Positions 3,085-52,336 of a stretch of 53,823 nucleotides of DNA are shown piece by piece. The first letter of the stretch is position 1, and every line of letters begins with the position of its first letter. A program made the position numbers and the translations under genes. Under the pieces are notes generated by a model. The model searched no databases, was not told the DNA's origin, and saw only the letters and a program-made list of their open reading frames with translations. This DNA is from Clostridia bacterium 41_269 (GTDB lineage Bacteria; Bacillota; DTU086): NCBI GenBank assembly GCA_001508005.1, contig LGEZ01000015.1:1-53823 (forward strand), written 5' to 3'.

Positions 3085-4353
3085 TTAGTTTGCTTTATTA
3101 GCATATTTTATCATTCTACCTTCCCAATTCCTAATTATAACATAATCTTTACCCGCTGAAATAAGATATTCTGGTAGTATGGGTGTCTTACCATATCCTC
3201 CTGGAGCATTAATAATATATGTGGGAATGGCAAGACCTGAAGTATAACCTCTCATTTTCTCCATAATTTCTATTCCTTCTTCAACTCTGGTTATAAAATG
3301 AGAAGTGCCAGTAACTGCTTTTGCATGGAAAAGATAATAAGGCTTTATACGAGCCTTAAGTAGCTCATGACAAAGTTTTTTCATTATATGGGGATCATTG
3401 TTAATGGATTTAAGAAGAACTGATTGATTCCCCAAGGGAACCCCTGCTTTTGCAAGTTTGTCAGTAGCAACCAAAACTTCCTTTGTAATTTCTTTAGGAT
3501 GATTAAATTGGGTATTTACATAAACAGGGTGGTGCCTCTCTAAAATTGAACAAAGGTCATCCGTAATCCTTTGAGGCATTGTTGCCAGTGTTCTGGACCC
3601 AAAGCGTTTGATTTCAACATGTTCTATCTTATCTAATTTTGTTAATATCCAGTCTATTTTATCGTCGTCCAGTAAAAAAGCATCTCCTCCCGTAATTAAC
3701 ACATCTCTTATTTCAGGATTATTTTCTATATATTTTATAGCCTCTTCTATTTCTTTGAGTGATCTGGCCCTATCTACCTCTCCAATATTTCTTCTCCTTT
3801 GGCAGTGACGGCAGTACATGGAACACTGATTTGTAACATTAACAATTAATCTGTCGGGATATCTCCTTGTGATACATGGTGCTGGTGAAGTATATTCTTC
3901 AGCCATAGGATCATCATCAACCACATCTAATACATCATTTAGTTCCAAAATTGAAGGAATAGCCTGTTTTCTAATGGGACAGTTAGGGTTATTTGGATCC
4001 ATAAGGCTGACGTAATAAGGAACAGCTGCCCATCGATATTTTTCGCTGACCTTTTTGATTTCTTCAACTTCCTGATCCGTTAAATTTATTACTTTAGCTA
4101 AAGCTTCAACAGTTTCAAAACGATTACGCATCTGCCACCGCCAATCTTGCCAATCTTTTTCTGTAGCATTTAAATATTTTAATATTCTGTGTTTATTCTC
4201 TTCAATTTGATCGGCAAGTTTCAAACCTGTATCTATATTTTTAGAAGCCTCTAAATAATCATTAATTCTTTCTTTTAATTCCTCAGCTCTTTTTAATGCT
4301 AATTGTCTTTTTTTTTCTATGGTTAAATCTTTATCTTTATATTTTTCTTGCAT
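3085..4353 (-). CDS. eam: Glutamate 2,3-aminomutase (KamA family, radical SAM/PLP)
   Basis: Radical-SAM, PLP-dependent aminomutase that moves the amino group between C2 and C3. The radical-SAM cluster motif CSMYCRHC lies near residue 180. Substrate-site residues fit glutamate rather than lysine: lysine 2,3-aminomutase has two aspartates that bind the lysine side chain, while here the matching segments read HAKAVTGTSHF and INAPGGYGKTP, with Lys and Asn in those positions as in characterised clostridial glutamate aminomutases. The product beta-glutamate is a known compatible solute, so a role in osmoadaptation is likely (inference). ATG at 4353 is chosen; a GTG three codons upstream is too close to the AGGAAG site. 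It follows guaB closely. Confidence 0.85.
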   Translation of the reverse strand: MQEKYKDKDLTIEKKRQLALKRAEELKERINDYLEASKNIDTGLKLADQIEENKHRILKYLNATEKDWQDWRWQMRNRFETVEALAKVINLTDQEVEEIKKVSEKYRWAAVPYYVSLMDPNNPNCPIRKQAIPSILELNDVLDVVDDDPMAEEYTSPAPCITRRYPDRLIVNVTNQCSMYCRHCQRRRNIGEVDRARSLKEIEEAIKYIENNPEIRDVLITGGDAFLLDDDKIDWILTKLDKIEHVEIKRFGSRTLATMPQRITDDLCSILERHHPVYVNTQFNHPKEITKEVLVATDKLAKAGVPLGNQSVLLKSINNDPHIMKKLCHELLKARIKPYYLFHAKAVTGTSHFITRVEEGIEIMEKMRGYTSGLAIPTYIINAPGGYGKTPILPEYLISAGKDYVIIRNWEGRMIKYANKAN

Positions 4354-24013: not shown

Positions 24014-24040
24014 AATTACCAGACCTATGATGTCTGGTTT
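24014..24040 (-). terminator. Terminator overlapping end of ylzJ
   Basis: Minus-strand ACCAGAC-ATCATAG-GTCTGGT followed by AATTTTTTT. The first arm lies in the last codons of ylzJ. Confidence 0.75.
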
Positions 24041-24258
24041 TCAAATATTAAAGTATAATTCATTACTGTACCCGGTTTAAATTTATCATCAAGATAATCC
24101 TGTGGATTGCTGCTTATAAGTCTTACAACTTTTACCGTTCCATCTCCTTGATCCTCTACAACTAAAGATGCTTCTCCCATTTTTATTTCTTTAAAGTTTG
24201 GCTTAACCATATCATCAAATAATAACAACTCTGTAGGAATTAATGTATAAAATATCAT
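24025..24258 (-). CDS. ylzJ: YlzJ-like protein
   Basis: A 77-residue protein of the YlzJ family (function unknown), recognisable by [16 protein letters not shown] at its start and by position between tepA and spoIIIE/ftsK, as in B. subtilis. Its ATG overlaps the tepA stop by 4 nt (ATGA), so translation depends on reading through tepA. Because the 5' part of tepA is displaced by the mobile element, ylzJ may have lost its native promoter. Confidence 0.85.
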
Positions 24259-24650
24259 CTTCCACCTTCTCCGTTGCTCTTTCTTTTTCTTAAATCAATC
24301 AACTCTTTTACCTTTTCTACAGCTTCTGAAAGCCCTCCCACTTCGTTTATCAATCCTACTTTAACAGCATCACGCCCTACCAAAACCGTTCCGATATCCC
24401 TAGCAAGTTCACCAGTTTTAAACATTAATTCCCTGAACTTCTCCTGGCTAATATTGGAATGATCAACAACAAACTTCACCACTCTATCCTGCATTTTATC
24501 AAGATACTCATACATTTGGGGCACACCTAGAACTAACCCTGTTAACCTAATGGGGTGTATGGTCATTGTTGCAGTCTCAGCTATAAACGAATAATCGGCT
24601 GAAACAGCTATAGGAACGCCGATTGTGCCCTTGTCGCTACGGATTTCTTC
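24255..24650 (-). pseudogene. tepA: TepA (ClpP-like translocation-enhancing peptidase), 3' part only
   Basis: Membrane-associated ClpP/SppA-type serine peptidase homologue involved in protein export and spore development in Bacillus. Only the C-terminal part remains: the frame reads [20 protein letters not shown] then [11 protein letters not shown], matching the TepA segment that normally follows a GG-x-HSIGVP motif, and continues to a normal end. Upstream of the Gly-Thr-Ile-Gly the frame is foreign and meets a stop at 24651-24653. Half the catalytic domain is therefore missing, and the gene is split by the element whose recombinase starts 16 nt away. The internal ATG at 24566 could yield a 103-residue fragment. 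The N-terminal half should be found at the other end of the element. Confidence 0.9.
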
Positions 24651-24665
24651 CTATTTATATATACT
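24617..24665 (-). other. Attachment-site junction (attL/attR) inside tepA
   Basis: The tepA-like reading frame stops resembling the family at about 24,620-24,635, and the serine recombinase stop codon is at 24,666. The hybrid site must lie in this short gap. Serine integrases exchange at a central dinucleotide, so no long direct repeat is expected. The exact core cannot be fixed without the other end. Confidence 0.6.
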
Positions 24666-26360
24666 TCACATTTCAACTGCGATTTTAAACCGCACTGCAT
24701 TTTCGCTGCCCGCTTCGCTGAGCTCCATGAGGTTTATGTTATAGACTATCTCCATTTTATCACGCCGGAGAACAATTCTGTCTATGATCTGCTTCAGCAT
24801 TTTCTTTTTGGTTTCCACGGGAGACTCTTTAAAAATTTCAAACCAGCGGGGGGCCAGCCTTGCAAACTGTTTTAAGCTGTCCCGCTCTACCTGCTTCTGC
24901 TGAAGTTCAGCCTTAAGCTCTGCTATCTGCTCCGTTATGACTTTCTCTTCTTCTTCCGCTCTTTTGATTTCCCTGGCCATCATTTCTTCAGAATAAATGC
25001 TTCCTTCCGGATCGGCAAAATACTGGTTCAAACGATCAACCCAGCTGTTTAAACGCCGCCGCACTTTTTTAAGCTCCCTTTCAAGCTGCGCAATCTGCCT
25101 GCTGATCTGGCTGCGGGCTGAAGCCTGCTTCATGTTTACATAGTGCTCTAAACTTCCCAGATCAACATTTTTTAAAAAACTTTCAAGTTCGCTCATAAAA
25201 ATGCCGTCAATCTTTTTCTGTGAGTAGCTTCCCTGACCCGAACAGAACGCCGAACCTTTCCTGGCATGAGTTGAACAGCGATAGACTGCCTTTTTGTATA
25301 CATACACCTTTCCGTTTGGCCTAACAGTTTTTGCGTTTCTGGTGCGGCTTGAGATAAACCCTTTCCCGCAGTAGCCGCACTTTAAAAAGCCCGTCAAAAG
25401 AGCTGTGCTGTCCATGGATCTTGCATCCGGTTTTGTGTTCTTTGAGCGCTTTTTCATTACTTCCATCAGCTTCTGCCATTCCTCAAGGGAAATAATTGTG
25501 TATTCTTTGATGGGCTTTGGATTTCCGTTTTCGTCCCGGGGGATAATTATCTCTGGATTGTTGATGTCATACCAGTTTTTAATCCTAACCCTTGATGTAG
25601 GTGTACTGCCCGGTTTCGTTCGGTTGTAGGCCGGCAGACCGGCTATGATAGGATTCTGCAGAACGGTTCTAACCCTTGCGTCCGTCCACAAACGATTTTC
25701 CCTGGTGCGGTAGCCATGCTCATTTAAGTAAACGGCAATCTTTTTACTGCCCCACTCTTCTTCAAGGTAAAGACGCTTCATGAGGAGAAGTATTTCCGCT
25801 TCTTTCTGATTGATCTCCAGTGGAAGCCCTTTTTTTGAATCCGGAAGTTTAAATCCATAAGGGGGCCTGCCGCCTGACCAGTGCCCCCGTTTTGCCATGT
25901 CCATCATGGAAGTTTTTACCCTGATGGAAGTGTTCTTGCTTTCGGTTTCAGCCTGCCAGCCTTCGATAAAGCGTAGAAGTTTGTCCATCTGATCATCGAC
26001 GTTTAGAGAGCGTCCGCCTGGAGCATCAGCAACCGCTATTACTTCTACCCCTGCATCGTAAAAAGACTTCAGGATCAGCGGATATTCAAAGGACTGCCTG
26101 CTGAGCCTGTCAGCCTTAAATATCAACAGAACGTCAAATTTTCCCTGCAGGGCATCCGATAAAACGTCCTGCAGGATGTCCCTTTTATCCGAAGATATTT
26201 TGAACGCGCTGACGCCGGGCTCTATGTATTCTTTAACCAGTTCCCAGCCTTTTTCAGCGGCAAAATTCCTGATTGTATGCTGCTGTGCGGGTATGCTGTC
26301 GTCTTCGCTTTTCAACTGTTTTTTCGTTGACACCCTGTATAAGGCAGCCGCTCTGGTCAA
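24666..26360 (-). CDS. Large serine recombinase (integrase)
   Basis: Site-specific recombinase of 564 residues that integrates and excises the element. The resolvase catalytic domain (about 1-150) has the nucleophile Ser11 in YRVSTKKQ and the LIFKADRLSRQ segment. A recombinase domain (about 165-280, GRPPYGFKLP) and a zinc ribbon follow (CGYCGKGF, then CSTHARKGSAFC). A coiled coil (about 405-495) ends the protein, as in phage and ICE serine integrases. The TTG start at 26360 has AAGAAGGGA 7 nt upstream. It lies directly inside the tepA junction, so it is the likely integrase of this element. Confidence 0.95.
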   Translation of the reverse strand: MTRAAALYRVSTKKQLKSEDDSIPAQQHTIRNFAAEKGWELVKEYIEPGVSAFKISSDKRDILQDVLSDALQGKFDVLLIFKADRLSRQSFEYPLILKSFYDAGVEVIAVADAPGGRSLNVDDQMDKLLRFIEGWQAETESKNTSIRVKTSMMDMAKRGHWSGGRPPYGFKLPDSKKGLPLEINQKEAEILLLMKRLYLEEEWGSKKIAVYLNEHGYRTRENRLWTDARVRTVLQNPIIAGLPAYNRTKPGSTPTSRVRIKNWYDINNPEIIIPRDENGNPKPIKEYTIISLEEWQKLMEVMKKRSKNTKPDARSMDSTALLTGFLKCGYCGKGFISSRTRNAKTVRPNGKVYVYKKAVYRCSTHARKGSAFCSGQGSYSQKKIDGIFMSELESFLKNVDLGSLEHYVNMKQASARSQISRQIAQLERELKKVRRRLNSWVDRLNQYFADPEGSIYSEEMMAREIKRAEEEEKVITEQIAELKAELQQKQVERDSLKQFARLAPRWFEIFKESPVETKKKMLKQIIDRIVLRRDKMEIVYNINLMELSEAGSENAVRFKIAVEM

Positions 26361-26366
26361 AGAGAA

Positions 26367-26528
26367 TCATCCCTTCTTTTCAACTTTTCCCAGAATCATT
26401 TCTGCAATGCATTTCTTAAACCTTTCAACATTTTCTGGATCGCTCCTTTTTGGGAATATGTTGCATATTTCCATTCCATTTCTTTTTGTAGTCAAATATA
26501 CGAATTCTTCATCTCTTTTGTTTTTCAA
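26367..26528 (-). CDS. Small protein (53 aa) coupled to the serine recombinase
   Basis: TTG start with a GGGGGTG motif 11 nt upstream. It encodes 53 residues, beginning MKNKRDEEFVYLTTKRNG and ending KVEKKG. It is in the same frame as the recombinase and ends in TGA only two codons before the recombinase TTG; its last codons form the recombinase ribosome-binding site. This spacing suggests translational coupling. Small charged proteins next to serine integrases can act as directionality factors or regulators, but nothing in this sequence proves that. I do not recognise the family. Confidence 0.55.
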   Translation of the reverse strand: MKNKRDEEFVYLTTKRNGMEICNIFPKRSDPENVERFKKCIAEMILGKVEKKG

Positions 26529-27065
26529 ATTTTACACCCCCGGTTTAGAGTGCCCAGAATATCCCAAAAAATGCAGGCTATCAAGACATCACCAAAGCCG
26601 AGACCCGGAATGTTGCAGGGTTCGCTTCTTGGCGGCAGCGAGGGTCCGAGAAAGGCTGCGGTAGTTCCTCTCAGAACCCCCGGCTTCATCAGCTGTGGGG
26701 AGGCTCAGACCAACGCTTTGAAAAAAGCATTTGGTCTGCAGTATGGCTAGACCGGTCCGAAAAGTCCCTATATCTGCGATTGAATATTGCTTGCCCATAA
26801 AAAAACAAAGCAGAATTTTGGATAATTTTGGATAAGGAATGATATTTGCCTCCCTGATATTTTTATGGTAATATATAACATGGAAGTTACTGCTAAAATT
26901 GGCATAATACTACAAATCTTTTTTCGCTCTCATTTGTCTTATATACTGACCTGCAATAAACCAATTTTTAGTAAGGGGGGTGGCGGAATTGGATGGGTAA
27001 CGTCTCTCCAAAGAACATGGTTTAAGTCTCTAAATTATAAACTATTATAGAAAAGGGGGAGAAAC
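26529..27065. other. Intergenic region with strong hairpin and tRNA-Leu-like fragment
   Basis: 537 bp with no convincing gene. The first 200 bp are G/C-rich and open on both strands, with no start signal. A strong hairpin at 26706-26738 pairs CAGACCAA with TTGGTCTG and continues inward. At 26976-26992 the string GGGGGTGGCGGAATTGG equals the 5' part of many tRNA-Leu genes, but the rest does not fold as a tRNA. The plus-strand secreted-protein promoter should lie here. Confidence 0.5.
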
Positions 27066-34220: not shown

Positions 34221-34925
34221 TCACCACCAAATTAATGGTTTGACAAGTTCCCAAGGGGGAGTTGTAAGGCTTACACGCCTTCCATCTTCAAATTCCACTT
34301 CGTCGGGCTGACTAGGGTCATCCGGCCTTGTGTAAATTCGGCGTATCCATTTGCCGGTGACGCAGGAGAGTGTCTCAGCAAGGTCGATGTTGTCATAGAG
34401 CTTGCTAAGATCTACCCGGATCTCGTTTTTCTCTAAGTCTACAGTCATTACCTTTTCGCCGGTCTGTGTGTTGTCCAGCATCTTAGTATCGCGAAGAAAA
34501 ACATATTGGTTGTAAGGGTCGGTCTGGACAAAAATGGGTTCGGCGTCCTTGTAACAAGCCCGGCGGAGAACGTCTTCATACTGTTCCAATCGGAAATATT
34601 TGATAAAGTGGCTGATGCCTTTGCCGTTTTCCTGAGCTCTGCCGTCTTTCCATTGGTCAGAAAAAATAACCTTTTTAATTCGTGGCAGCAATACGGTATC
34701 AAAATAGTCCGCCATTTCCACAAGAATATACTTGCGTTGTCCTCCATCATGGCGGTTCAGGTCGATTACTGCATGAGCAGTTGTGCCGGAGCCCGCGAAG
34801 AAATCGAGAATAATAGCCGATTCATCGAAATTACATACTCTAATGCAGTCGCTTATGAGATCGACAGCTTTTGGATAAGCAAACAATCCATGTTGCCCAA
34901 ATAAGTTCTTTAAAGTTCTAGTACC
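34221..34925 (-). pseudogene. mod: Type III methyltransferase Mod, C-terminal part (split by IS)
   Basis: 234 residues: GTRTLKNLFGQHGLFAYPKA, then the SAM-binding motif ILDFFAGSGTTAHAVIDLN, and a normal C-terminus ending just before res. The N-terminal part lies at 36,920-38,926. The family segment SATDY-GTRTLKNLFG is cut exactly between Tyr and Gly by an IS200/IS605 element. This half alone could only be translated from a GTG inside the IS right end and lacks the DPPY catalytic motif. Confidence 0.9.
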
Positions 34926-35086
34926 GTGACTTCCTCCCCACACCTAAAGGTGTAGGGCTTCCTGGCGGCAGGCGCACGCACCTGCCGGGTTACACCGGTG
35001 CGAACGACCCTTTTAAAACCCGTTGCCGGAGGGTCTCCCGGAGGGGACCGTCACTTCCGTCCCGACTACTCCAGGTACCGGGCCTT

Positions 35087-36400
35087 TTAAGCCGCGGCCC
35101 TTGGAGATACTTGCACAAACCTGTTGGACCTCTTGTCCCAGCGCCAGACCTGCGGTTCGCCGAAGGTGGAGGGCAGTTTCCAGCCGACGCAGCTCCCGAA
35201 GAGGTACTGTTTCAGCAGGTTGGCCGCGCCGTTGAGGTCGGCCTGAAGGATTAACCTGCACTTTCTGCACACCCACAGCCCGCGGTGCTTCCTCCAGGCA
35301 GGGTTGCGGGCACCGCAGAAACAGCACGTGGAGGACGTATTCTTCTCCGTCCAGGAGTCAGTCTGCACGCCCCGCATGAGGTTCTTGTAACGTTGCTCTG
35401 CGTGCAGCCGGTCGTAGGCCATCTGGTTGATCTTCTGGGTGGCCTTTTTACCCTTCATTCCGGTGCGGGCGGAGCGGCGCAGGTCGGTAAGGTCGCCCAC
35501 CACCGCAAAAGCCACGCCCTCGGCTTCGTCCAGCTCCGCAAAGAGCTTCGTCAGGGCGTGTTCCATCTGCCTGATGCGGCGGTCGAGCTTTTTCAGCCTG
35601 CGGATTTTCGCAGAAAGACACCTTCTCCACCTGCGGGAGCCTTCCTTTAAGCGGCTCATTTTTTCCTGGAAATCGGCTATGGTTTTGTTCCTGTACTGCA
35701 CCTGGGAAAGAATTTCCCGGCAGATGAAGAGGTCCAAAATGCCGCTCAACGTGGCCCGCGCCACCAAGGCGGAGTTGTAGTCGTATGCCGAAACGGCGCC
35801 TGTGCGGTAAACGGGCACCACTCCCAGATCGAAGGTCACGTGGAGTACCAGATTTTCCACTTTGCGGCGGCGGACGACCGCCTTCACCTTGACCTCGACT
35901 GGGGTACCCCTCACTCCCGTGCCGTCGGGCAGGGTGACCGCATCCCACCCGCCGGGTAGTGCGACTTTAATGGGTTCCTTCTTCCGGGAGAGCTTCAACA
36001 CGAGGGAGTCATCCTCAACATTGAAGCCTTGCCTCTTCCAAGTGACGGTGCGGAGGTGGTTTTTCGGCTTGAAGTTTGGCGGGTTCATCTCCAGGTGACC
36101 GTTTTCCCGGTGCTTGCGGTAACCGGACACGGCTTCAAAGTACTCTTCCACCACCGCCTGTGCCGATTGGGAGTGCAGCTCCTTCCACACGGCAAAGGAC
36201 TTAAACTTCGCCTTGAGTTCCGCCTCCGTTGACCAGCGGTTCTCCTGCTTGAGGGTTTCGCGGCTGTGCCAAACGCAGGAGTTCCAGATACGGTTGGCCG
36301 CCAGCATGGCGGGTTGGAAAAGCGGTAATACTTCCAGGCCCAGCGGGAACTGCTTGGTCAAAAGGAGACGGTGAGGGTGCGATTTGCCGCTCCAAGCCAT
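35087..36400 (-). CDS. tnpB: TnpB-like RuvC protein with altered catalytic glutamate
   Basis: Accessory protein of IS605-type elements; active relatives are RNA-guided DNA nucleases using an RNA from the element right end. About 437 residues from the ATG at 36400, which has GTAGGTGA upstream; a GTG at 36409 abuts the tnpA stop. RuvC residues: the first Asp is in AVSAYDYNSALVA, the last in LQADLNGAANLL, and the zinc ribbon has CCFC and CRKC. The usual glutamate (V-x-E-N/D-L) is replaced by Gly-Asp in FAVVGDLTDL, so nuclease activity is doubtful unless another residue takes over. A 100-residue Lys/Arg-rich helical insert lies between motifs. The right-end RNA would cover roughly 34926-35100. 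Confidence 0.85.
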   Translation of the reverse strand: MAWSGKSHPHRLLLTKQFPLGLEVLPLFQPAMLAANRIWNSCVWHSRETLKQENRWSTEAELKAKFKSFAVWKELHSQSAQAVVEEYFEAVSGYRKHRENGHLEMNPPNFKPKNHLRTVTWKRQGFNVEDDSLVLKLSRKKEPIKVALPGGWDAVTLPDGTGVRGTPVEVKVKAVVRRRKVENLVLHVTFDLGVVPVYRTGAVSAYDYNSALVARATLSGILDLFICREILSQVQYRNKTIADFQEKMSRLKEGSRRWRRCLSAKIRRLKKLDRRIRQMEHALTKLFAELDEAEGVAFAVVGDLTDLRRSARTGMKGKKATQKINQMAYDRLHAEQRYKNLMRGVQTDSWTEKNTSSTCCFCGARNPAWRKHRGLWVCRKCRLILQADLNGAANLLKQYLFGSCVGWKLPSTFGEPQVWRWDKRSNRFVQVSPRAAA

Positions 36401-36409
36401 ATGTTTCAC

Positions 36410-36805
36410 CTACTTGTCCTGGCACTCTGCAATGTAGCGCTGGATAGTTTCGGCAGACACCGTACCGGCGGTACCCACGTAGTACGTTCTAGTCCAGAGC
36501 CGCGGCCCCGTCTGTTTGCTTAACTCCGGAAACTTCTGGCGCAGGTAGCGGGAAGTATACCCTTTAATGGTGTTGATGAGGACAGAGGGAGCATGCCTTG
36601 GAGGAGCTGAAACAAAAAGGTGTACGTGATCGGGTTGGATGGAAAGGCTGAGTACCTCTACCTCCCTTTCATCGCAGACCTTCCGAATCAGCCGTTCTAG
36701 TTCCTCGGCAACTGGACCCACCAAAATCTTGCAGCGGTATTTCGGTATCCACACGAAGTGATAGTTTATGTTGTAGTGAGCATACCTGGTCTTTTTAGTT
36801 TTCAT
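36410..36805 (-). CDS. tnpA: IS200/IS605 Y1 transposase TnpA
   Basis: Single-strand transposase of 131 residues. The HUH metal motif is in QPDHVHLFVSAP and the catalytic Tyr in AETIQRYIAECQ near the C-terminus. The N-terminus HYNINYHFVWIPKYR is characteristic. It is intact and full length, so the element could still move and excise precisely when its DNA is single-stranded, as during replication or conjugative transfer. The tnpB-like gene follows with no gap. Confidence 0.95.
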   Translation of the reverse strand: MKTKKTRYAHYNINYHFVWIPKYRCKILVGPVAEELERLIRKVCDEREVEVLSLSIQPDHVHLFVSAPPRHAPSVLINTIKGYTSRYLRQKFPELSKQTGPRLWTRTYYVGTAGTVSAETIQRYIAECQDK

Positions 36806-36866
36806 AGCAAATTCAGTATACTACACTCAGACAAAAAAACAACCCAGCTTTTACTTTTTAACCCGG

Positions 36867-36915
36867 CCGCCGCTTTCATCCCGTCCCCTGAAGGAGACGG
36901 GTCTTCCCGCGGCGG
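36867..36915 (-). repeat. Left-end hairpin of IS element no. 1
   Basis: Outer arms CCGCCGC/GCGGCGG and inner arms CCCGTC/GACGGG separated by unpaired bases. The layout, including TTTCATCCC and CTTCCC in the same places, is shared with the left end of IS no. 2 (52374-52418). Confidence 0.75.
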
Positions 36916-36919
36916 TTTT

Positions 36920-38926
36920 ATAATCTGTAGCAGAGTACTCCTCTTTGTCCCACCAGGTTGGTGGTGTTATGCCTTCTTCGGGCATCCTCGACTTTATATA
37001 AATCGCAAGTTTTCCATTACGATCTTCATCAACTTTAACTTCATTAAGGCTTTGCAACAAGCGTTCAGGAGTCCACTTCCATCTCCTCTGTTGGTTATTT
37101 TCATCTATAGGCCATAGCACCTGTTCATCATCTGCAGGAGGTTCAAGAACAACCCATTCTTCCAATTCTTCATTCCACTCTAATTTAGGAACTCTCCAAG
37201 TTCCAGAAGGGTTTACATAAATAGGATAAAACATTCTGGGCGCTTCTTTTCTAAGACCGCCATGTTTGCGAAAATTGACCCATTCGAAAGCACCTTTATC
37301 ATCTTCTTCCCTGTATCTGGCTTTTTGAGCTTCAGTTCGCTCTAACCGCCCAACAGTCGCCGCATTAGTCTTTGCAAAAAAAAGGGCATATTCGTGGTTC
37401 AGAGAGAAGCCCTTTGGTGTTGAACGCCCTGCAGGATTACTCCTTACTACAGCAATTCCTAACTCTTCAGGGAAGTACAACGATAAGACATGTCTTAAGT
37501 GCAATAATTCGTTATCATCGATAGCAACGCATATTATACCGTTGTTTTTTAGGTAATCCTTTGCAATAGATAGCCTATTTTCTAATAGTGTCATCCAGGA
37601 TGAGTGTTTGTACATATTAACATAGTCAATCTTGCTAGACTCCGTATTATATGGCGGGTCGATGTAGATACAGTTTACTTTCTCATGAAACTTGGGCAAA
37701 AGCGTCTTCAAGGCTTGATAATTTTCACTACAAACAAGCCAACCGTCAAGAACCTGATCTAGCTGGTCGAATAGACTCAAAATTAGTATCTCAAGGTCAG
37801 GAAAATATTTGGTGTCCACGGGCAAATACTGATAGCGGTCGCTCAATCTTTGATCTAATAAATCGGTTTCCTCCCATACGTCGACGGGTTTGAACTCATT
37901 ATCTATCATACCAAGACTACGCCATTCTTGTAGTTGAGCTACCATACCAGGATGTTCGAACAGTCGTTGGAGCATATCCAGCCCTTTTTCTTGAGCGGCA
38001 ATTCGGTCTAACGTAATTATGTAATGACTATCAATTACAAATTTTGGTTTATTCCATATTTTAACTAGTTCATCCTCAAATTGGGCGATAAAGTCAATAA
38101 TCTTGTAGGCTATTTCCTTGAGCACCTGAAGTTGACGAATCCGCTTCTCAGACCATATCGTGCCCCCTCTAGAACCTTCTTCCTTATATTCAGGCTCGAA
38201 TACGTACTGGTAAAGCCACAGGTCAAACTGCTCTCGCAGAAACTTCCGGGCGTCCTTGCATATGAAGTAGTCTACCTCGCTCTGGCGCTCAAATATGCGA
38301 AAGGCACGCTCGAGTACCTCCTCCCCGGGAACCTGGTCTGTATATCGGGGCAGGCCCAGCGCATTCTTGATTTCTTTGCGTATGTTGTCAAGCTTGGTCT
38401 TTCGCCCTTTTTCGGAGTAAGAAACGTTAAAGATTATAGCTCCGTCGTTTCGTATTTCTTTAAAGCTATAAACCAACTCACGTTTCTCATTATTTTTCTT
38501 ATGCTCCAGTGAAGACACATCAAAGAAGAAGCGAAAACTGTCCACCTCAATTTCCATGCTCTTAAATAAGCGATCAGTTTTGACGTAATAAAGCATATGA
38601 GTCTTCCAAAAAAGCATCACATCTCGATCATCGGTATAAACCTGTTCGTATACACGCTCATGTAAGGGAGTGTGACGATAATAAATAGAACCAGATTCGC
38701 TAAAGTAACGGTGAAAGAAGGTATAGAGTCTGTCAAAAAGTTCTTCTCGAAAATCAGGAAAGGGCTCAAGGGCTTTATTTATATCTTCCATTAAACGAGG
38801 AAAGACACTTTTTTCAAAATAGCAGGATTTTATTCTCATTAGGTTTATGAAACCAGATTCGCCTTCAACCTTTGTTCCAACGAATATATCTTTTAAAGCG
38901 TTTAAAAACTTTTGTTCTTTGGTCAC
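36920..38926 (-). pseudogene. mod: Type III methyltransferase Mod, N-terminal part (split by IS)
   Basis: 669 codons from the GTG at 38926 (GGGAGG 8 nt upstream) to the IS boundary; the frame then runs 23 codons into the IS and stops at 36851. Beta-class N6-adenine methyltransferase: the long N-terminal region is of the type III kind, and motif IV reads YIDPPYNTESSKIDYVNMY near residue 435. The SAM-binding FAGSGTT motif is on the other side of the IS. The split protein lacks that motif, so modification is predicted to be off. Removing 34926-36919 joins both parts into one open frame of 903 codons. Confidence 0.92.
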
Positions 38927-39174
38927 AAGTACAGCCTCCCTGATTATATAGCAATTATCTTTAAATTTTCCCAGCAAATAACCATTCCTCTTTTTAAGGT
39001 CTGGTATATTTTCCTTTCCTCTGTTAATGCCGTAAAGCTTTTTAAAACTACTAGTGTGTATCCGTTCCTAGTTCTAAAATGCTTGTACCACTTATTCGTA
39101 CAATCGCAGTATGTTATATTTTTTCGACATCTAGCAGGTTTTTCCTACTAAATATTTCTAATGTTAACTCTGTG

Positions 39175-40962
39175 TTATTTTATAAAACCCTCCCAACCCG
39201 AAGGAGAGCTTTCTACTTGCACATGTATATCCTCAGCCTTAATATTCCTTTCCCTGAAAGGCGTATATTTACCGCCTGAGGTAAGCAAACAGGCACTGGG
39301 ATGTTCTCTGTAAGAAAGCTTTTTGAATCTTAAAGGATTGCCTCCCATCACAAGAGCTATTCCTTCATCAAAGGGGAGCCTGCCCACTTCCGATGGGTCC
39401 ATGAGGGCGCGCTCTTTAGGCGATACGGACACCTGCGCAGTATCCAGTACACCAGCTTTTCTCCTAAAAGAGAACTGCTCCACCGTAGCAGAGCCCAGAA
39501 GGGATGATACATACTCCGTAGTCTCCTTTTCAGCCGCTCCCCAGACCAATCTTAAGGCGCAGCAGCCGATGATTTCCTTCCAGGCTTCGTAAGGGTATCT
39601 CTCTTTTAACTGGGGGAGCGACTGGGCAACCATCATGCAGTTTATGTTTCTGCCCCTCATGGTAGCAATCATGTCTTTAAAGTTGGGCAGGGCCCCTATG
39701 GTGCAGAATTCGTCCATGATAAAGTTCACCCTTACGGGGTTTTTGCCTCCAAACCTGTCCGCCTGACGGGTGAGCCTCAAAAAGAGAAAAGAGAAGAACA
39801 GCGACGATAGAAATTCAAAAGTCCGGTCCGTGTCCGGTATGACGCAGTAGTAAATGCATTTGCGCCTGCCGGGAAGCTCAAGGTCTATGTCGTTTGCTGA
39901 AGTTAATTCCCGGACGGCTTTACTCTGAAAGACCTTCAGCCTTGTACCCAGCCCTGCGATAATGTTGCCCCGGGTTTTTGGTTCGGCCATGCAGAAAAGG
40001 TTGTACGGCCTTTTAGCAGGGTGGTCGTCCGGAAGGCATCTGAAGGTGCCGTCCAGTTCATCGAAACTGCCGCTGGTGAGGAAGTCGTAAATGCCCGCAA
40101 GGCTTCTTTCTTCAGGCTTCATTTCGTGGACAGCGTACAGGACCAAAGCGTTTAAAAGGTTCTGCTCGGATCTCTCCCAGAATTTGTCCCCGCCTGGACG
40201 GTGAGCCGGCCCTTCCGTGTTTTCGATGATGATCTGGGTCAACAAATGGGCGTCCAGCTCGGATCTCACTTCGTCAACGGGGTTCCAGCGATCGCTCATA
40301 TTCATGTCCACAAGGTTGAAGGAGCGGATGACATAGCCCTCATTCTGATAAAGGGTGAGAGTCTCACGGAGTATTTCCCCTTTGGGGTCGGTTGCTATTA
40401 CGGATTCTCCGGAGACAGCCGCCTGAAGGAGATTGGGAAGAATAAAGCTCCACGTCTTTCCCGTCCCGGGAGGGCCGAACACAATGCAGTTGCGGTTCAA
40501 TCTCGGGTTGTCGTGACGGATGGGTTCCCCCTCAAAGGAGCCTATGAGTATCCCCGGGCCGTGACCGAAGCTGAAGAATTTTTCAGCTTCATCACGGGTC
40601 ATCCATCTGGATGTACCGCACGTTGGATCGTCGGAGACCTCAGGCTCCTTTCTGGGAAACAGCTTTTGATGCAGTTCCGGATAGCGCATGTAGTAAGCGT
40701 AGAATACTGCCGATACGCTTGCCAGAGTGATGATGTTGAGGATTATCCACACGGGGATTGAGCCATGAAGCGGGACGGCTATGGCTGCGTAAAAGGGATT
40801 GGTGAAGGACTTCTTCATGAGGTCCCAGTCGGAGAACATAAGAGAGATGCTGCCGAGGAGCCATGCGTCTAGGATGTAGATGATTAAAGCGATTGCGGTA
40901 ATTTTCAGGATTTTCTGTTGGGTCGGGGTGAGGTTTTTGAGCTTTTCTTTTAGGGTTTCCAT
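39175..40962 (-). CDS. VirD4/TraG-type conjugative coupling ATPase
   Basis: Type IV coupling protein of 595 residues that brings the relaxase-DNA complex to the transfer channel. Two N-terminal membrane segments (residues about 18-45 and 70-90), Walker A FGPPGTGKTWSF at about 163-171, and Walker B VNFIMDEFCTIG near 415 are visible, as is the family segment MATMRGRNINCMMVAQSLPQ. AAAGGAGG precedes the ATG. It is the clearest conjugation gene in the element. The 250-bp gap downstream to mod (38927-39174) contains nothing I can identify. Confidence 0.93.
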   Translation of the reverse strand: METLKEKLKNLTPTQQKILKITAIALIIYILDAWLLGSISLMFSDWDLMKKSFTNPFYAAIAVPLHGSIPVWIILNIITLASVSAVFYAYYMRYPELHQKLFPRKEPEVSDDPTCGTSRWMTRDEAEKFFSFGHGPGILIGSFEGEPIRHDNPRLNRNCIVFGPPGTGKTWSFILPNLLQAAVSGESVIATDPKGEILRETLTLYQNEGYVIRSFNLVDMNMSDRWNPVDEVRSELDAHLLTQIIIENTEGPAHRPGGDKFWERSEQNLLNALVLYAVHEMKPEERSLAGIYDFLTSGSFDELDGTFRCLPDDHPAKRPYNLFCMAEPKTRGNIIAGLGTRLKVFQSKAVRELTSANDIDLELPGRRKCIYYCVIPDTDRTFEFLSSLFFSFLFLRLTRQADRFGGKNPVRVNFIMDEFCTIGALPNFKDMIATMRGRNINCMMVAQSLPQLKERYPYEAWKEIIGCCALRLVWGAAEKETTEYVSSLLGSATVEQFSFRRKAGVLDTAQVSVSPKERALMDPSEVGRLPFDEGIALVMGGNPLRFKKLSYREHPSACLLTSGGKYTPFRERNIKAEDIHVQVESSPSGWEGFIK

Positions 40963-43041: not shown

Positions 43042-43211
43042 GTCGTAGGTATACGGGTTTAATGCTTAAATTTTGCCCTCTATTCGTTGATGCACAAGGT
43101 TTTTTGTATACCGTTATATTTTCGGGTTTTTCATGCTTTTCTATACGGGTTTAAACCTTAAAAAATTGCCTTAACCCATTGATATATCTACATTCAGGCA
43201 TACCGTATATT
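43042..43211. repeat. Repeat cluster between ParM-like and ParR-like genes (candidate centromere)
   Basis: Two near-identical repeats, TATACGGGTTTAA..CTTAAA..TTGCC, at 43050-43077 and 43142-43170, 92 bp apart. Two inverted partial copies (GTATACCGTTATAT near 43106 and GCATACCGTATATT at 43198-43211) share the GTATAC core. The cluster fills the gap between the two partition-type genes. Confidence 0.55.
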
Positions 43212-44196
43212 AACCTGCACACATTTTCAGGAAACCTACAGCGTTGGCAAAGTACCCTTCTTCCATTAAATAAGGGCAGGGGAACATATCTTTTACGATG
43301 TCAAATAGGAGAGCTGAACCTCCTCCTGCGAATACCGTAAGTACGAGCTTGTCTATTTGCTTTTCCCAAGCTGCAATGGCTCCGCTGACAATTGTTTCGG
43401 CTATTTGTCTCTGAATTTTCATCCACGCAGGAAAGAGATCGATTTTTTTACCCCAAAATACCACGGGCTGACCGTTTATCGTATCTTCGAAAACTGACTG
43501 ATACTCGCTTAAAGGCAAGGTCGAACCCGTAACTTTTTCATATTCCATGGCTATGGCTTTTTGAGCTAAAAATATCCCCGTTTCTACGGAGCCACAACCT
43601 TCCACAATGGGTATGGGCATGTTGTCCTGTATTTCAAACAGAAGATAATCCGTGGTGTAAGTGCCTATATCGAGAACCCCTATTCTTCCTTTTTCGGGGA
43701 TTTCGTCAAGAGCAGCCAGAACTCCCGTACCCTGCGGAAATATGGATACGCCTTTGAAACTTATATACTTTTCTTGTCCTCCGTTTACCATTACGCAGGC
43801 GGATAAATTTGATAATCTTTCTCTTAATTTGTTCTTTTGGTTTTTGTAGTACGAAAGAGGAAGCCCTGCTGCTAAAATAATATCGGGGTTGTTAGAGCCG
43901 TTGGATAACAAATAAGCAGCGGTCAGCAATAGAGCATCGTGCATGTCTTCAGGCTTCTCTTGTCTTCCGACAAAAGCCCTGCAAGAGTTGCTCATGAGAG
44001 CTGCCCTGCCAATTAAAGCCTCGTTTACCCTGCCTTCGTTGGCTATTCTTACTCTGTAGTCTATAACGCCGTTATACATTCCCTCCAGACGGTTAACTCC
44101 TAAAGGAGCGGTTACTGAAGGAAAAGAAATTTTTTCGCCGTTTTCTGAAACGGCTTTTGTGTAGCCATAGCCCACATCAATGCTGATAACTGTCAT
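43210..44196 (-). CDS. ParM/StbA-like actin-family ATPase
   Basis: 328 residues with the actin-like ATPase signature: phosphate-1 ISIDVGYGYTKAV, phosphate-2 GVLDIGTYTTDYLLFE and adenosine motif TVFAGGGSALL. Archaeal and plasmid actin-like families share this short, two-domain form. It would polymerise to push or pull element copies apart. AAGGGGGT precedes the ATG. It begins 11 nt after a small HTH gene. A partition-type filament on an integrated element suggests that the element has a replicating extrachromosomal phase. Confidence 0.88.
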   Translation of the reverse strand: MTVISIDVGYGYTKAVSENGEKISFPSVTAPLGVNRLEGMYNGVIDYRVRIANEGRVNEALIGRAALMSNSCRAFVGRQEKPEDMHDALLLTAAYLLSNGSNNPDIILAAGLPLSYYKNQKNKLRERLSNLSACVMVNGGQEKYISFKGVSIFPQGTGVLAALDEIPEKGRIGVLDIGTYTTDYLLFEIQDNMPIPIVEGCGSVETGIFLAQKAIAMEYEKVTGSTLPLSEYQSVFEDTINGQPVVFWGKKIDLFPAWMKIQRQIAETIVSGAIAAWEKQIDKLVLTVFAGGGSALLFDIVKDMFPCPYLMEEGYFANAVGFLKMCAG

Positions 44197-50832: not shown

Positions 50833-51939
50833 TTAGGCCGCCTCCAGGGCCAGCGCCCTCTTGAGTATGTTTCGGGCAGCGTTCACATCGCGGTCAAGCA
50901 CAAGCCCGCAGTGCGGGCACTCGTGTAGCCGAACAAACAGGTCCTTAGGCACGGTCTTCCCGCAGTTGCTACATTCCTGCGAGGTGCCGGACGGATTCAC
51001 CTTCACCAGCTTGGTACCAGCCTCCGCCGCTTTGTACTCAAGCATGGCGAGGAACTCGCTCCAGCTCACATCGTGGATGCTCTTCGCCAGGCAATGGGAT
51101 CTCACCATACCTCTGACATTGAGGTTTTCTACCGCTATAAAGCCGTAAACATTTACCAGTCCCCTCGACACCTTATGCAGGAAGTCCCTCCGCTGGTTGC
51201 GGACTTTGGCGTGGAGCTTCGCCAGCTTCCGTCTGGCCTTTTCCCTGTTGCGGGAGCTTTTTTGCTTGCGGAAAAGGCTCCTTTGGACGCATTTGAGCTT
51301 CCTTTCCGTTTTTATAAGGTGCCGCGGATTTTCGATATTTTCTCCGTTAGATAAAGTAGCAAACTTCTCCAGGCCGACATCGACACCGACAGCAGGCCCC
51401 GGACGAACTAAGGGGGCGGATATTTCTACTTCAGTTGCAAAAATTGCCCACCACTTGCCGGTTGCGTCGCGCTTTATGGTGACAGTTTTTACCTTGCCGG
51501 GAATTACCCTGTGCAGTTTTATGCGGACAAGACCGATTTTAGAGAGCCTCAGCTTACCGTCTGCAAGGCAGGCCCCTAGACCCTTGCCAAACTGCGTGAA
51601 TGTCAGCGACTTGTAACGCCCTTTGCCCTTGAAGCGCGGATAGCCGGGCGTGTCCCCATTTTTCACCCTCCGAAAGAAACCTGCAAAAGCCCTCTCTACC
51701 CTGAAGAGGACTTCTTGGGCTGCCTGGGAGTGAACTTCCCGCAGACGCTTATTCGCCTTTTTGGCTTCTCTGAGCCACACTTGCTGTTCGGTGCGGGTAA
51801 CGCTTCTCCTTTCCTGCTCCCAGGCATTTTTCCTTTGAGCCAGGGCTTCGTTGTATATCCACCGGCATGCCTCCAGCCAGTCCAGGAGCTTTTGCTCTTG
51901 TTCCTTATTCGGGTACAGCCTGAATCTGTAGTTACGCAT
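50833..51939 (-). CDS. tnpB: TnpB RNA-guided nuclease (canonical)
   Basis: 368 residues from the ATG at 51939, which overlaps the tnpA stop by 8 nt. Complete RuvC site: Asp187 in AVGVDVGLEKFATL, Glu271 in IAVENLNVRGM and Asp351 in DRDVNAARNIL. Zinc ribbon CSNCG...CPHCG. The N-terminal wedge/REC region (RFRLYPNKEQEQKLL) is typical. Active TnpB uses an RNA from the element's right end (here about 50732-50900) whose 3' guide is the flanking DNA, and cuts sites next to the transposon target motif. Very likely active. Confidence 0.95.
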   Translation of the reverse strand: MRNYRFRLYPNKEQEQKLLDWLEACRWIYNEALAQRKNAWEQERRSVTRTEQQVWLREAKKANKRLREVHSQAAQEVLFRVERAFAGFFRRVKNGDTPGYPRFKGKGRYKSLTFTQFGKGLGACLADGKLRLSKIGLVRIKLHRVIPGKVKTVTIKRDATGKWWAIFATEVEISAPLVRPGPAVGVDVGLEKFATLSNGENIENPRHLIKTERKLKCVQRSLFRKQKSSRNREKARRKLAKLHAKVRNQRRDFLHKVSRGLVNVYGFIAVENLNVRGMVRSHCLAKSIHDVSWSEFLAMLEYKAAEAGTKLVKVNPSGTSQECSNCGKTVPKDLFVRLHECPHCGLVLDRDVNAARNILKRALALEAA

Positions 51940-52336
51940 TACCTTGAGACTCGACATAACGCTTGACATCCTCCAGCTTCACCTCACCCACAGAGGCCAG
52001 GAAATAGCTCGGGGACCAGAAATGGCCGCCCCACAGCTCCTTCTTCAGGTCGGGGAATTTCCGAAAGAGGAGGCGCGCCGAAACCGACTTGAGGGAGTTC
52101 ACAAACTTCGACAGTTGCACCTGGGGTTTCGAGGCGAAAAGGACATGGATGTGATCCAGGTCGGTTTCCTGCTCGATGATCTGCACCCCGAACTTTTTGG
52201 CAACACCGAGGTTTATCTCTTTCAGGCACGAAGAAACCTCTGGTGTCAGCACTTTTTTCCGGTACTTCACACAGCAGACGTAGTGGAACCGAAGTGAATA
52301 TACTGAGTGGCAACCTTTATCTAGCTGGTACTTCAT
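51932..52336 (-). CDS. tnpA: IS200/IS605 Y1 transposase TnpA
   Basis: 134 residues with HUH motif in DLDHIHVLFASKP and catalytic Tyr in EDVKRYVESQ. Complete. It is clearly different in sequence from TnpA of element 1, although the left-end hairpins look alike. The tnpB start lies inside its last codons, indicating coupled translation. Confidence 0.95.
   Translation of the reverse strand: MKYQLDKGCHSVYSLRFHYVCCVKYRKKVLTPEVSSCLKEINLGVAKKFGVQIIEQETDLDHIHVLFASKPQVQLSKFVNSLKSVSARLLFRKFPDLKKELWGGHFWSPSYFLASVGEVKLEDVKRYVESQGNA

Follow-up and report, generated by a model that had tools for sequence, protein, structure and literature searches.

A mobile element carrying its own large serine recombinase interrupts tepA, which encodes a protein of the ClpP family, at the codons of the presumed active site. 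The interruption is very probably due to an integrated element of conjugative type whose serine integrase is dedicated to tepA and whose insertion is reversible, and from the sequence the recombinase should restore the gene exactly by cutting the element out. The window analyzed here is an entire contig (C18, 53,823 nucleotides) of a 1.67-Mb draft genome in 30 contigs from a spore-former, in which the sporulation genes spo0A and spoIVA and SASP genes are present.

The 3' part of tepA lies at 24255-24617 on the minus strand, encodes the C-terminal half with the presumed catalytic histidine of the TMTIHP motif, and is cut at the Val codon of GHSIG-V-P. Its stop codon is overlapped by ylzJ (24025-24258, minus strand), which is followed by uppP and then ftsK/spoIIIE, all at the positions given in the initial annotation, which had described the split. 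That annotation also asked whether the N-terminal half lies in frame at the other end of the element, and this was indeed what we found. A genome search for the ClpP family located the 5' part elsewhere in the genome, on contig C21 (positions 73838-74237, plus strand) directly after rnj, where it reads ...SLVLGGGHSIGVPI and then continues into the foreign residues EPISLPTA and a stop codon. The C-half query matched the window copy only, and the two halves were the sole tepA matches in the host genome; thus, neither the lack of an N-terminal half nor a second intact tepA, which had been named as arguments against the proposal, was encountered. The sequence common to both halves is GTTCCTATAG, and fusing them there in silico gave an intact, continuous, in-frame TepA, so that precise excision would rebuild the gene as had been proposed. 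Because the 5' part is on C21 and the 3' part on C18, the element interrupts the chromosomal order rnj-tepA-ylzJ. The presumed catalytic serine (motif GHSIGVPI) is on the 5' half and the histidine on the 3' half; this assignment was made by eye and from what is established for ClpP, the computed alignment with the host's own ClpP ending just before the motif. With these two residues on separate halves, neither half should work alone.

The recombinase beside the break is encoded by a complete ORF of 564 amino acids (24666-26360, minus strand) and contains Resolvase (PF00239), Recombinase (PF07508), and zinc-ribbon (PF13408) domains, which confirms its earlier identification as a complete large serine recombinase. 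It resembles the SprA/YokA, TP901-1, phiC31, and A118 integrases. The position of the break itself had to be revised: the split stands, but the junction falls on the GT in the Val codon of GHSIG-V-P (24616-24617), two codons past the presumed catalytic serine, and the GTIG residues just before it, which are similar to host sequence, are encoded by the attP arm of the element. Likewise, the recombinase does not end 16 nt from the break; 48 nt separate its stop codon from the crossover, and 25 nt separate it from the att arm. The shared core GTTCCTATAG occupies 24608-24617 of the minus strand and is common to both junctions. We place the crossover at its GT, which is bounded by where the shared core of the window genome overlaps that of G371, on the assumption that all family members use one dinucleotide. 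The element arm of attR, GTAGCGACAAGGGCACAATCGGC (24618-24640, minus strand), forms one half of the attP dyad, and the tepA target attB is GGACATTCCATAGGAG/TTCCTATAGCTGTTTCAG. The attP rebuilt from attL and attR of the window genome was symmetric at 15/24 positions (p about 5e-5), and those of the other pairs at 16-19/24. In all five attL/attR pairs, the attP dyad was centered on the same GT (p at most 5e-5), attB was far less symmetric (7-10/24), and the joined tepA frame was intact, these being the pairs with both junctions readable. Because five pairs break at one codon, the break in tepA is not due to chance. The sites thus have the dyad attP, short central core, and differing attB of a serine integrase.

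A conserved ORF of 53 amino acids (26367-26528, minus strand) lies directly upstream of the integrase gene. Small ORFs of about 50-70 residues immediately precede the recombinase in six of six cases with readable upstream sequence; homologues occupy the same place in G001, G390, G371, G187, and G276, and the family has N, F, P, and A at fixed positions in common. An AlphaFold model of the 53-residue protein (pLDDT 82) consists of a beta-hairpin plus a helix, and searches by family, sequence, and fold gave no match in Pfam, PHROGs, or the PDB. From its position upstream of the recombinase, the small ORF is a candidate gene for an excision or recombination directionality factor.

We surveyed 399 genomes of the phylum, once with the tepA C-half and a second time with the recombinase. 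Recombinases of at least 60% identity occurred in exactly seven genomes (G000, G001, G162, G187, G276, G371, and G390), and all of them have a tepA 3' part that breaks off at the same codon. The integrase, in turn, accompanied each split tepA seen in the survey. The next homologue was 40% identical and lies beside a glutamine synthetase-like gene. In G001, which belongs to the same genus as the window genome, the recombinase protein is 97% identical and its spacing to the tepA 3' part is nearly equal. The 5' half is cut short by a contig end in G001 and was not found in G276. In G371, 77.6 kb lie between the two halves, and in G187, 26.4 kb. The element of G371 is in the opposite orientation, because its recombinase sits at the other junction. 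G390, G162, G187, and G371 are members of a single family, as is G402, which matches the Moorella stamsii contig of L049 and L052. Two contigs, G001:C53 (positions 1-152) and G002:C224 (at its end), stop within the tepA 5' half; this might stem from a mixture of integrated and excised forms, or simply from breaks in the assembly.

Tandem elements separate the halves by 407 kb in G390. A single 407-kb element was considered and rejected, since the interior contains a second recombinase, the left-end gene once more, and an intact attP. The region (G390:C1:1333304-1740200; L128, L133-L152, and L121) comprises an element of about 57 kb followed by one of about 350 kb, and the natural attP between them, at G390:1390430, differs by one base from the reconstruction. 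This physical attP is direct evidence that the element ends do join as predicted. By eye, the second element contains FlhA-, anaerobic ribonucleotide reductase-, and DNA polymerase-like ORFs, together with six tRNAs.

Besides an intact tepA, Moorella stamsii (L049/L052) and a metagenome-assembled genome (L105) each have another tepA 3' fragment, located 9-12 kb further downstream. In both, the fragment is joined to an element-type junction with an att-like arm, and no recombinase was seen in the adjacent 9-12 kb. It looks as though tepA was repaired next to what remains of an element. Seven split genes with the recombinase compared with two remnants accompanied by intact tepA without it gives a Fisher p of 0.03 for few, non-independent cases among the best matches listed in the survey. 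The presence of the recombinase with split genes, and of intact tepA where it was not seen, hints that excision matters.

The right part of the element runs from 24618 to the end of the window (53823; 29.2 kb), and the left part from 74237 to 118316 on C21 (44.1 kb). If the ends of these physically separate contigs belong to one element, it is at least 73 kb long. It encodes a VirD4/TraG-type coupling protein of a conjugation system (39175-40962, minus strand; PF02534, E 1.6e-71), a VirB4/TraG-like P-loop ATPase in two ORFs split by an in-frame stop, an M23/3D peptidase, and an actin-like plasmid segregation protein of the ParM type (43210-44196, minus strand; PF17989 and PF21522). With these genes, including both a coupling protein and a VirB4-type ATPase, the element is of conjugative type. 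The subset of element proteins scanned yielded no relaxase, and, given also the in-frame stop in the VirB4-like ORF, self-transfer may be impaired. The stop itself (3167-3169, within L109:1769-3748) may represent decay or a sequencing error. We rejected a phage origin because there was no match in viral contigs, and phages and plasmids hold only distant integrases (under 60% identity). Several further genes were recognized by eye. A type III restriction-modification methylase-like gene (window 34221-38977) is apparently broken by an IS200/IS605-type element, with TnpA- and TnpB-like ORFs at 35087-36805; a second such pair is at 50833-52336, and the left part has two IscB-like RNA-guided nuclease ORFs (L108:18119-19609 and L126:7399-8736).

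The elements appear to have moved recently. Between G000 and G001, the integrase dS was 0.20 versus about 0.9-1.8 for chromosomal neighbors, and between G162 and G390, the dS of the element body was mostly 0.06-0.3 versus about 0.64-1.6 for the chromosome. Element dS below chromosomal dS indicates that the elements travel between species, unlike the inherited skin element. Vertical inheritance of the split in G162 and G390 was suggested by an integrase dS of 0.67 against 0.72-0.83 for neighbors, but was ruled out by the low dS of the element body. The tepA 3' half has a dN/dS of 0.05 in G000/G001 and about 0.015 in G162/G390, and split TepA sequences show no acceleration compared with intact ones. 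Purifying selection was nevertheless rejected as proof that the split gene functions, because element dS is well below chromosomal dS in both pairs; with insertions this young or this mobile, a low dN/dS is not decisive, and much of the divergence time may predate them.

Taking these results together, we propose that the recombinase recognizes the conserved tepA segment encoding the presumed catalytic-serine motif GHSIGVPI, and that a single crossover at the GT of the Val codon would insert the element and leave two silent tepA halves. The recombinase and a directionality factor, maybe the product of the small upstream ORF, would then, in some cells, release the element as a circle and restore tepA. 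Such restoration would be a by-product of element mobility, or at most a heterogeneous switch within the population. No excision product was seen in the window genome, which counts against this explanation.

The insertion might instead be dead, with tepA dispensable, the element permanent, and the halves decaying. Some relatives do live without the gene: 8 of 41 genomes searched gave no tepA match, and therefore tepA can be dispensable. The in-frame stop in the VirB4-like ORF also fits decay, and because the insertions look recent, intact halves may only reflect their youth. However, in every readable case the recombinase and the two halves have open frames, split TepA is unaccelerated, and the low dN/dS of the 3' half, with the reservation on divergence time noted above, does not suggest decay. 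In addition, the tandem copies in G390 with a natural attP indicate that element ends have been joined. We thus regard a dead insertion as unlikely.

The initial annotation suggested programmed excision of the skin type; in such a scheme, the element would be removed in every sporulating mother cell, rebuilding tepA, and kept in the spore genome. The architecture is that of skin, SP-beta, gin, and yin (PMC5595907, PMC10747680, PMC4191935): a spore-linked gene is split, and its halves lie on either side of the element and can be rejoined in frame. The host carries sporulation genes, the split TepA lineages are not accelerated, and intact tepA is found alongside in both genomes where an element end was seen with no recombinase close by, all of which would fit this scheme. 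The link between tepA and sporulation comes from papers on other species. In B. subtilis, YmfB/TepA is expressed in the forespore and has been connected with the breakdown of SASPs. For C. difficile, tepA (CD1323) appears among the genes of the forespore sigma-F regulon (PMC3789822), and SpoVT represses tepA in B. subtilis and B. cereus (PMC5061766). SP-beta excision, on the other hand, is restricted to the mother cell (PMC4191935). Because tepA is a forespore gene where studied, excision limited to the mother cell would leave the forespore copy split. Furthermore, the elements were recently mobile between species without vertical maintenance, no match to a sporulation promoter was found upstream of the small ORF and recombinase, and tepA can be dispensable, as noted above. 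Programmed mother-cell excision is therefore unsupported, and we consider it improbable.

Alternatively, the element might switch the forespore protease gene itself: excision in the spore lineage would restore TepA, followed by re-integration or by maintenance of the circle, for which the ParM-type segregation gene on the element could serve. We regard this as a long shot; if true, a gene-intervening element would here be at work outside the mother cell. Finally, although the genome is a 30-contig draft with the tepA halves on separate contigs, a false joining of the element to tepA during assembly is scarcely conceivable, since identical junctions, accompanied by a matching recombinase and by att arms with dyad symmetry, occur in the one-contig G390 and the two-contig G371.

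The preferred reading, a mobile element with a tepA-dedicated integrase, has relatives among known systems. Serine-recombinase elements split the sporulation-linked genes sigK (skin, in B. subtilis and C. difficile), spsM (SP-beta), spoVFB (vfbin), gerE (gin), and yabG (yin) (PMC5595907, PMC10747680), as is seen here for tepA. As with those elements, exact excision would rebuild the frame, and a small candidate directionality protein is present. Unlike them, the tepA element is of conjugative and not of phage-like type and moves between species, and its target is a forespore gene where studied. The system also resembles the large serine recombinases that target a single conserved bacterial gene, surveyed in PMC10083194, in combining one recombinase family with one conserved coding target, a dyad attP, and a short core; the target here is tepA, whereas the main text of that survey names neither tepA nor ClpP. 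Our literature search also found no paper linking tepA to use as an integration site. Reversible insertion could likewise switch a host gene as in phage regulatory switches or active lysogeny (e.g., the comK prophages of Listeria), a description also given to yin (PMC10747680). In contrast to those phages, the tepA element is not phage-like, and no switching was seen here.

The att sites and crossover bases of this system can be read from the sequence, a candidate excision factor has been identified, and the recombinase with its attP/attB pair may serve as a tool for DNA integration. The tepA-dedicated serine integrases are found in the Moorella family, where they span several genera, and in at least two further families. 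Since the known sporulation elements leave only in the mother cell and tepA is a forespore gene where studied, these elements would be either parasites of a dispensable gene or carriers of a mode of excision that has not yet been described.
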